Shown here: one piece after another, positions 2,571-9,692 of the stretch
How the letters are laid out: each line of letters opens with the position of its first letter
How positions within the stretch are numbered: the stretch's first letter is position 1
Origin: Chloroflexota bacterium
GTDB lineage: Bacteria; Chloroflexota; Dormibacteria; Dormibacterales; Dormibacteraceae
Direction: 5' to 3'
Assembly (NCBI GenBank): GCA_005879985.1
Contig: VBIA01000162.1
Coordinates: 1-44,027, forward strand
DNA length: 44,027 nucleotides
The notes under the pieces: generated by a model
What the model saw: the letters and a program-made list of their open reading frames with translations, nothing else
Databases searched by the model: none
What the model was told of the DNA's origin: nothing
Position numbers and translations under genes: made by a program

Positions 2571-2876
2571 CTACCACCACGCCCGCCGGCGGGCGACCCG
2601 GGCGTAGTAGCGGTCCTCGAGCCCGCCGATCGGGGGCAGCAGATACAGCGAGCCCAGGAGGCGCCAGCCGCCGCCCAGCTCGCGGAGAACCCGGTTCACG
2701 GCTGCCGCCCCGACGAACCGCCGCCCGCCTGGCTCGGTGGCGACCAGCGCGGGCGCGTCCGCCAGGCCGACGAGCTCGATCCGGCGGTCGGGGTCGTGGC
2801 GCTGGACCCAGCGCGACCGGCGAATTCAAAAGTCGCACGCGCCGTCGTACACCAGGGTTAGCCGGGCATCCGCCAC
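2571..2876 (-). CDS. DCC-family (DUF393) thiol-disulfide oxidoreductase-like protein with in-frame TGA; candidate selenoprotein (Cys14-x-x-Sec17)
   Basis: Read-through from GTG 2876: MADARLTLVYDGACDF(U)IRRSRWVQRHDPDRRIELVGLADAPALVATEPGGRRFVGAAAVNRVLRELGGGWRLLGSLYLLPPIGGLEDRYYARVARRRAWW*. YDGxCxFC motif, GGxWRL and terminal ARxRxxW typical of the DCC family; the only internal stop is TGA at 2826-2828, at the second Cys position. Confidence 0.7.
2792..2818 (-). promoter_or_regulatory. Bacterial SECIS-like hairpin downstream of the TGA codon
   Basis: Minus-strand GGTCG-CGCTG-[GGTC]-CAGCG-CCA-CGACC: 10 bp in two segments with a 3-nt bulge; apical loop GGUC starts 17 nt after UGA. Confidence 0.5.
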
Positions 2877-2900
2877 AAGCCGAAACTACACTCTCGGAAG

Positions 2901-5490: not shown

Positions 5491-6684
<1,194 letters not shown>

Positions 6685-6769: not shown

Positions 6770-7309
<540 letters not shown>

Positions 7310-7311
7310 CG

Positions 7312-8706
7312 GTGGACGGCTCTAAACCCGTCGACCTGCAGGAGCCGCTCGAAGAGCTTGCCCGCGACCCTACCCTCTTCAGCCACGACCTGAAGTTCCC
7401 GCCGGCGGACCGAATCCGCGTCTACGACGACACGCTGCGCGACGGCGAGCAGATGCCCGGCGTCGCGATCACGCCGAAGGACAAGTACGAGCTCGCGCGC
7501 ATGCTCTCGGACATCGGCGTCCACATCATGGACGTCGGATTCCCATACGTCTCCGAGGGCGAGCGCGAAACGCTGCGGCTCGTGCTCGAAGGCCGCAAGC
7601 GTGGCGAGCTGAGGCCAGACCTCGAGGTCGTCTGCATGATGCGCAGCACCAAGGGCGACATCGACGCGACCATGCAGGTGATCGATTCGCTCGGCCACAA
7701 GCGCGACGAGGTGACCTACTTCGTCTTTACGTCGGCCTCCGACCTGCACGTGAAGTACAAGCTCGGCAAGACGCTGCTTCACCGCGAGGGCATCCCCGAA
7801 TCTGAATGGCTCGAGCTGCCCGTCTCCCACTACCGGGAAGCGAACCTCCGGATGATGTGCGAGGCGATCGCGTACGCGCGCTCGCAGGGCGCCACGTCGA
7901 TCGAGTTCGGCGGGGAAGACGGAAGCCGCGCCGATGTCGACTACATCGCCGAGATCCACCGCGAGGGCCTGAAGGCCGGAGGCACGAGGCCCTCGACGCC
8001 CGACACGGTCGGCTGCTACTCGCCCTATGCCGTTCGCGAGTACATCCCGAAGATCAAGGCCGCCGCGCCCGACGCGCCGCTCGTTGTGCACTTCCACAAC
8101 GACCTGGGCATCGGTGCGTGGAACACCGTGACCGCGCTGGGCTCAGGCGCCGAGGTGTTCACCACGAGCGTCAACGGAATCGGCGAGCGCACCGGCAACG
8201 CGCCGATGCACCAGGTGCTGCTGCAGCTGCGCTACCTGTTCGGCATCGAGATCCCAAATTTCAAATACGAGAAGCTGCGCGACCTCGCACGTCACCTGGA
8301 GCGCGTCAGCGGCATACCCGTGCAGCCGACCGAACCCGGCATCGGTCTCAACGTCTTCTCACACGAGTCGGGCATACACACTGCGGGCATGCTCATCCAT
8401 CCGGCGATTTACCAGTTCATCCCGCCCGCCGACATGGGGGCGAAGGTCGAGTACGTCTACGGCAAGCACTCGGGCGCGGTGGTCGTCGAGCACGCGCTGC
8501 GCGGCGCCGGCATCACGCCCGAACCCAAGCTGGTTGCGCGCGTTCTCGAAGAGGTGAAGCGGATCCGTGAAGAGCGTGCGGAGCGCGCGGACTTCTCCGA
8601 GTTCCACCGCAATTACTACGAGCACCTCGGCCATCTGGGCCTGACCGCGGCGGAAGTCGTCGACATCGCGCGCGCCATCTCGGCCGACTCGAGTGCCAGG
8701 GGCTGA
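7312..8706 (+). CDS. 2-isopropylmalate/homocitrate synthase family protein without a LeuA-type regulatory C-terminal domain
   Basis: RIRVYDDTLRDGEQMPGV...VVHFHNDLGIGAWNT...VNGIGERTGNAP...HESGIHTAGMLIHP...YGKHSGAVVVEHAL; about 464 aa from GTG 7312. Confidence 0.88.
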   Translation: MDGSKPVDLQEPLEELARDPTLFSHDLKFPPADRIRVYDDTLRDGEQMPGVAITPKDKYELARMLSDIGVHIMDVGFPYVSEGERETLRLVLEGRKRGELRPDLEVVCMMRSTKGDIDATMQVIDSLGHKRDEVTYFVFTSASDLHVKYKLGKTLLHREGIPESEWLELPVSHYREANLRMMCEAIAYARSQGATSIEFGGEDGSRADVDYIAEIHREGLKAGGTRPSTPDTVGCYSPYAVREYIPKIKAAAPDAPLVVHFHNDLGIGAWNTVTALGSGAEVFTTSVNGIGERTGNAPMHQVLLQLRYLFGIEIPNFKYEKLRDLARHLERVSGIPVQPTEPGIGLNVFSHESGIHTAGMLIHPAIYQFIPPADMGAKVEYVYGKHSGAVVVEHALRGAGITPEPKLVARVLEEVKRIREERAERADFSEFHRNYYEHLGHLGLTAAEVVDIARAISADSSARG

Positions 8707-9692
8707 TGGCGACCACCACGGCGAAGGACACGGCCACAAAAGAGGAATACCTGCAGCTGCATCGCTGGATGTGCATGGCCAAGGCGCTCGACGACCGCAT
8801 GCACATCCTTGTCAAGCAGGGTCGCGCGCCGTTCGTCGGCTCGAGCCGCGGCCATGAAGGTATCCAGGTCGCGTCCACCGCGGCGCTCAGCCCGGACGAC
8901 TGGCTCGTGCCTCACTACCGCGGGCTGGCCAACGCGATCGTGCGCGGCTTGACGATGAAGGAATGGATGCTGGCCGTCTTCGCCAAGGCGGGCGACCCGC
9001 TGTCGGCGGGCCGCAACATCCCTGGCGGGTGCTACAGCTACCACCGGCTGAACATCGCGCCGGTGTCGCAGGTGGTGGCGAGCTGGGTCCCCAAGGCGGC
9101 GGGCATCGCCTACGCGGCCAAGCTGCGCGGCGAGGGCACGGTGACGCTCTGCACTTTCGGCGACGGCGCGACCAGCCAGGGCGCCTTCCACGAGGGCGTG
9201 AACTTCGCCGCCGTGCACAAACTGCCGGTCGTCTTCGTCTGCGAGAACAACGGCTACGCGATCTCGGTGCCGCTCCGACTGCAGATGCAGAACCCGAACG
9301 TCGCCGAGCGCGCCGCGGGCTACGGCATGGCCGGCGAGACCGTGGACGGCACCGACGTGCCGGCGTCATTCGCTACGTGCCGGGAGGCGGTCGCTCGCGC
9401 TCGCCGGGGCGAGGGGCCGACGCTCATCGATGCCAAGATCTGGCGCCTCAACTCGCACACCTCCGAGGACAACCAGGTGAAGTACCGCGGGACGGAGGAG
9501 ATCGCCGAAGCCGCCCGGCACGACCCGATCTCGCGCTTCAACGGCTGGCTCATCGATCGGGGTTGGCTGACCGCCGAGGAAGCCGCCGTGGTGCAGAAGC
9601 GGTACGACGAGGAGGCTTCGGAGGCCGCGGACTGGGCGGAGCAGCAGCCCGACCCGGCTCCAGACGACGCCCTGAAAAACGTTTTTGCCTGA
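8706..9692 (+). CDS. Thiamine-PP-dependent 2-oxoacid dehydrogenase E1 component, alpha subunit
   Basis: LVPHYRGLANAIVRGL...GDGATSQGAFHEGVNFAAVHKLPVVFVCENNGYAISVP...WRLNSHTSEDNQVKYRG. No E1-beta follows. Confidence 0.9.
   Translation: MATTTAKDTATKEEYLQLHRWMCMAKALDDRMHILVKQGRAPFVGSSRGHEGIQVASTAALSPDDWLVPHYRGLANAIVRGLTMKEWMLAVFAKAGDPLSAGRNIPGGCYSYHRLNIAPVSQVVASWVPKAAGIAYAAKLRGEGTVTLCTFGDGATSQGAFHEGVNFAAVHKLPVVFVCENNGYAISVPLRLQMQNPNVAERAAGYGMAGETVDGTDVPASFATCREAVARARRGEGPTLIDAKIWRLNSHTSEDNQVKYRGTEEIAEAARHDPISRFNGWLIDRGWLTAEEAAVVQKRYDEEASEAADWAEQQPDPAPDDALKNVFA

Follow-up and report, generated by a model that had tools for sequence, protein, structure and literature searches.

A DCC/DUF393 protein with an in-frame UGA is a likely new selenoprotein of Chloroflexota, with exchange of selenocysteine and cysteine among its relatives

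The stretch of DNA analyzed here (the window, 44,027 nucleotides of contig VBIA01000162.1) raises the question of whether a small gene with a stop codon inside its reading frame is broken or whether this codon is read as selenocysteine (Sec). The minus-strand frame concerned opens with GTG at 2876, runs to the TAG at 2571-2573, encodes VADARLTLVYDGACDF-TGA-IRRSRWVQRHDP...RRRAWW before that stop, and contains a single internal stop, the TGA at 2826-2828 (Table 1). The original prediction had taken it for a DCC/DUF393 oxidoreductase with a C-D-F-U active site due to this lone in-frame TGA, and this part held. The TGA occupies the second Cys position of the YDGxCxxC motif, with the active site reading YDGACDF[U], and the 101-aa read-through product, with the TGA entered as Cys, matched the Pfam profile PF04134 (DCC1-like) with 55.3 bits over profile positions 1-110 of 113, the gathering cut-off being 27.8 bits. 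The further claim, that the UGA is decoded as Sec, was supported by every sequence test run and is considered very likely (probability of about 0.95); it is inferred from sequence, and there is no direct proof of insertion. With the same reservation, the seemingly broken gene at 2574-2876 (minus strand) is very likely an intact selenoprotein gene.

Table 1. Features of the DCC selenoprotein locus in the window
Feature	Coordinates	Strand	Remarks
DCC/DUF393 (PF04134) selenoprotein gene	2571..2876	-	GTG start 2876, stop TAG 2573-2571; 101 aa, C14-D-F-U17 active site
In-frame TGA, proposed Sec17 codon	2826..2828	-	homologues carry TGA or TGC/TGT only; downstream purifying selection
TTT codon directly 5' of the Sec codon	2829..2831	-	T immediately before TGA; 8/8 CxxU genes
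Bacterial SECIS hairpin	2792..2818	-	stem GCGCTG/CAGCGC, loop GGTC 2808-2805, lower stem GGTC/GACC
Short conserved intergenic region with TAGTTT	2877..2900	-	AGTGTAGTTTCG kept in most CxxU and CxxC orthologues

A first rival explanation is that of a pseudogene or of a sequencing or assembly error, namely, a recent TGC-to-TGA nonsense mutation or a wrong base call. In its favor, the source genome is a fragmented MAG of 235 contigs in which other errors are possible, such as a gap of 32 residues in an aconitase-family ORF. The homologues speak against it. DCC matches were found in 41 of the 101 genomes comprising the source and its relatives, and four active-site types, CxxC, CxxU, UxxC, and UxxU, emerged once the loci were translated with TGA open; a Cys-only pattern search of the genome contigs for related loci had recovered CxxC homologues only. 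The CxxU type is formed by the source genome and seven relatives, all eight, from different genera, with the TGA at the identical codon, and the source protein shares 55-76% identity with the seven others. The UxxU type, with two TGAs (DGTUGVUTR and variants), was found in 20 sequences and the UxxC type in 5, the remaining homologues being CxxC, and 25 homologues beyond the eight CxxU genomes carry TGA at one or both active-site codons. Across 39 homologues, the codons at the two active-site positions numbered 53 TGA, 22 TGC, and 3 TGT, with no TAA, TAG, or any other codon. The recurrence of the TGA in seven further genomes and the restriction to TGA, TGC, and TGT are therefore above chance, and the conservation of the TGA is a direct observation. 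Since the frame is also open and under purifying selection past the TGA (see below), the error explanation is all but excluded, and the fresh mutation or sequencing error that the original prediction had named as its alternative is rejected, as the TGA recurs in independent genomes.

The gap mentioned above concerns the ORF at window positions 5491-6684 (plus strand) and includes a TTATCGACLGG segment with a conserved Cys. The 32 residues exist in an otherwise near-identical relative, pointing to either an in-frame deletion or an assembly error.

The spread of the trait goes beyond what had been predicted, both in the presence of Sec at the first Cys position (UxxU and UxxC) and in its distribution over several Chloroflexota lineages. 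A sample of 400 Chloroflexota genomes yielded five outside the source class with TGA at active-site positions, with the motifs DGTUGLU, DGWUGFU, DGGUPFC, DGAUAFU, and DGAUGFU, and these five genomes belong to other Chloroflexota families. The survey of TGA-bearing DCC genes was confined to Chloroflexota, and absence from other phyla is not implied. Two genomes with family members, G017 and G013, match the Chloroflexi MAGs CF_138 and UBA6019 by exact sequence. Two further observations concern gene copies: genome G005 holds a UxxU and a CxxC gene at different loci (L161 and L151), and the CxxU gene of G025 is closely followed downstream by a second partial DCC match (C133:22314-22490, minus strand), which may be a duplicate or fragment.

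The codons 3' of the TGA are under purifying selection, with a dN of 0.17 and a dS of 0.76 between the window and its nearest relative (dN/dS of about 0.22), and the median pN/pS downstream of the TGA is 0.41 within the CxxU and 0.34 within the UxxU type. The CxxU gene is located between two opposite-strand AMP-binding (acyl-CoA-ligase-type) genes. This gene order is the same in G009, G029, and G025, so that at least three of the seven TGA-bearing relatives are syntenic; G006 and G003 have TGC orthologues at this same syntenic locus. These data bear on a second rival, according to which translation stops at the UGA, be it constantly or only under selenium shortage, and reinitiation yields the downstream part as a separate product, as in a split or selenium-regulated gene. 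In support of this view, UGA serves as a stop at other places in the source genome, and Sec decoding and termination are known to compete in established systems. However, termination would cut the motif-bearing strand-helix unit across the active site, both sides of the TGA are conserved together, and the frames of the Cys orthologues are uninterrupted. This second rival is consequently judged very unlikely, and Sec decoding remains the preferred reading.

Exchange between Sec and Cys is evident from the alleles themselves. A tree of 49 sequences, in which many forks are weak, requires no fewer than 8 changes at the first Sec/Cys position and no fewer than 11 at the second; Sec and Cys have therefore likely been exchanged repeatedly. 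The neighborhood points to no functional partner, the genes flanking the CxxU gene being on the other strand, and no neighborhood of the UxxU genes is shared between lineages. Shortly upstream of the GTG start, between divergent genes, a TAGTTT sequence resembles the -10 box of a leaderless mRNA, a function that is only inferred; the surrounding AGTGTAGTTTCG is conserved at this position in loci L019-L028, whether the orthologue has Sec or Cys.

The machinery for Sec insertion looked for in the source genome, a 2.85-Mb MAG of 88% completeness, is present. The tRNA-Sec with anticodon TCA (UCA) was located on contig C59, selA and selB are adjacent on C117, and selD on C167 has an in-frame TGA of its own (SHGAG-TGA-ACK, i.e., SHGAGUACK) and is a Sec-SelD. 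It may be added that this selD (L050) has a layout like that of the DCC gene, with GGT before the TGA and another GGT 17 nt after it. A third rival explanation holds that UGA is decoded as another amino acid, Cys or Trp, by a reassigned code or a suppressor tRNA, and UGA read as Cys would likewise give a CxxC motif. Against this stand the full Sec system, including the Sec-SelD, and the SECIS-like hairpin 3' of these TGAs. A reassigned code is, moreover, unlikely because TGA is an ordinary stop for other genes of the window, those at 7255-8706 and 8706-9692. Decoding as an amino acid other than Sec is thus very unlikely.

Among the 101 nearest relatives, the tRNA-Sec was detected in 24 of the 29 genomes with TGA alleles versus 35 of the 72 others (P of 0.002, uncorrected for relatedness). 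It was not detected in G009, G015, G022, G032, and G038; given the completeness of the 29 genomes, about 3.6 such misses are expected. The five genomes from other families of Chloroflexota whose DCC genes are of the Sec type all possess a tRNA-Sec. The phylum-wide contrast was uninformative, as 31 of the 39 other sampled DCC-bearing genomes, without TGA at the site, have one as well; co-occurrence outside the source family says little because the tRNA-Sec is common across the phylum.

A hairpin had been predicted directly 3' of the UGA with its loop 17 nt away, and it is present as described: GGTCG (2818-2814), CGCTG (2813-2809), the GGTC loop (2808-2805), CAGCG (2804-2800), CCA, and CGACC (2796-2792), the GGUC apical loop beginning 17 nt after the UGA. 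The published bSECIS model (PMC13188914) calls for an apical loop of 3-9 nt with a G in the first two places, a stem of 4-16 bp, a distance of 16-37 nt from the UGA, and an MFE of at most -7.5. It is met by the GGUC loop, the 6-bp stem, the 17-nt distance, and the -16.5 kcal/mol of the 39-nt element. When folded alone, this element forms the hairpin as its MFE structure, with a z score of only -1.8 against dinucleotide shuffles, and a 48-nt segment around it adopts a competing fold; for these reasons the hairpin energy alone is weak evidence and, by itself, is unexceptional for such GC-rich DNA. Conservation is more informative on this point: the hairpin sequence GCGCTGGGTCCAGCGC is shared without change by the eight CxxU genes, whereas three Cys orthologues differ at the hairpin position (GGGTGGGTGGAGCG, CGGTGGGTTCGGCG, and ACGTGGGTGGCGAG), so that the hairpin is kept where the TGA is kept and eroded where TGC is found. 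Compared with synonymous-codon shuffles, the fold was more stable in the Sec genes but not in the Cys genes, the mean z scores being -0.83 for CxxU, -1.35 for UxxC, -1.81 for UxxU, and 0.00 for CxxC. An Rfam scan of the hairpin matched no family, a scan that is not informative for bacterial SECIS elements.

The stem sequence and register vary between DCC lineages. Within the source family, the UxxU relatives have a different stem, CGCGCTGG-GTCCG-CCGGCGCG, with GU at the same place, and their loop lies about 18 nt after the second and about 27 nt after the first of two UGAs that are 9 nt apart; from this arrangement it is inferred that one hairpin could serve both UGAs. As a separate observation, codons +13 to +17 past the second TGA of the UxxU genes (L030-L047 and L156-L157) read GCC GGC CGT GTG CTG, a run beyond the hairpin that is near-invariant at synonymous positions, also in distant families. 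The CGT is present in 17 of the 20 UxxU genes versus a usage of 6%, and a further RNA element is possible.

The codon before the Sec codon shows a marked preference. The codon preceding the active-site position is TTT in 8 of 8 CxxU genes and TTC in three Cys orthologues, and TTT makes up only 6% of the Phe codons in six neighboring genes. Within the source family, a T precedes 42 of 42 Sec-TGAs versus 2 of 24 Cys codons (Fisher P of 1.5e-15, uncorrected for relatedness and thus overstating independence), arising mostly through the rare codons TTT, ACT, and GTT. Outside the source family, a T precedes the TGA in only 1 of 11 cases, i.e., without preference; this context is therefore a lineage habit and not a rule. 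A bolder reading would combine two claims, namely, that a single SECIS serves two UGAs, making the UxxU proteins natural diselenide thioredoxin-like enzymes, and that the T-ending rare codon is an unnoticed cis-element favoring Sec decoding over termination in the source lineage. Taken jointly, these claims are less likely than not and are offered as tentative.

As to function, "thiol-disulfide oxidoreductase" is, for DCC/DUF393 proteins, an annotation name. The AlphaFold2 model (pLDDT of 79 overall and about 90 for most of residues 1-60) has a beta-alpha-beta topology in which C14 and U17 lie where helix 1 begins. The best fold matches in the PDB included mycoredoxin, thioredoxins, glutaredoxins, and SelW-like proteins, all of them weak (E of 0.03 or higher; TM of about 0.4 for the best match), and a PDB sequence search with the DCC protein gave no credible or solved relative. 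The protein sequence shows no evident signal peptide. The protein is likely a cytosolic thioredoxin-like thiol/selenol oxidoreductase, with its redox activity being inferred and its substrate and electron donor unidentified. In the proposed mechanism, SelB and Sec-tRNA-Sec, guided by the 3' hairpin, would decode the UGA as Sec at the second CxxC-like position, placing Sec17 where helix 1 of the presumed thioredoxin-like fold begins; the enzyme would then alternate between a reduced form with thiol and selenol and an oxidized one in which a selenenylsulfide bond joins Cys and Sec, and the UxxU relatives may cycle through a diselenide.

The protein has a full-length match, the YDGxCxF[C] motif, and a comparable size in common with the DCC/DUF393 oxidoreductases (PF04134, COG3011, B. 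subtilis YuxK type). Unlike typical members, it has Sec for the second motif Cys, and in relatives Sec can replace both; it also lacks about 14 mid-protein residues present in most relatives and ends in RRRAWW, whereas the UxxU relatives have Cys residues at the C terminus. With the SelW-like selenoproteins (PF10262, CxxU) it shares the small size, a predicted thioredoxin-like topology, and the CxxU motif, SelW structures being among the weak PDB matches, but it has no Pfam match to PF10262, and its motif and C-terminal half are specific to DCC proteins. Families predicted to carry two Sec residues as UxxU have been listed before (PMC13188914, Table 1), namely, the Prx-like thiol:disulfide oxidoreductase PF00578, the FmdB-type TIGR02605, and NF041115. 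The UxxU DCC relatives resemble them in having Sec for both active-site Cys residues, although the domains are unrelated and, in the DCC case, CxxC, CxxU, UxxC, and UxxU all occur within one family. The SECIS of E. coli fdhF has a GGUC apical loop about 17-18 nt 3' of the UGA on a GC stem. The source hairpin is of this type, with its GGUC apical loop about 17-18 nt past the UGA; unlike in fdhF-type elements, stem and register vary by DCC lineage, and the source family strongly prefers a T before the UGA.

No described DCC-family selenoprotein was known to the original prediction, and none was found in the inventory and open-access literature searched. The inventory of 119 prokaryotic selenoprotein families and subfamilies of May 2026 (PMC13188914, Table 1) has no entry for PF04134, DCC, or COG3011, and the main text of the deep-Sep paper has no DCC entry. 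Nothing on DUF393, DCC, or COG3011 as selenoprotein or selenocysteine was found in the open-access literature searched, a scope that excludes a survey of groundwater MAGs with candidate selenoproteins, which PMC13188914 cites as Deng et al. 2026. NCBIfam 20.0 has no model for the source protein, with one weak unrelated hit (E of 0.008) among 18 homologues. The DCC proteins of Chloroflexota thus likely constitute a new selenoprotein family in which Sec and Cys have repeatedly replaced each other, and priority is likely but unproven; the novelty is that of the family, not of the mechanism.

PF04134 extends the inventory of prokaryotic selenoproteins in a phylum whose Sec usage is little studied, and automatic annotation would miss or truncate such TGA-bearing DCC genes. 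The occurrence of CxxC, CxxU, UxxC, and UxxU among relatives, partly at the same locus, is a natural experiment on the contribution of Sec at each active-site position, and the family is likewise one on the rise and decay of SECIS elements and UGA context.
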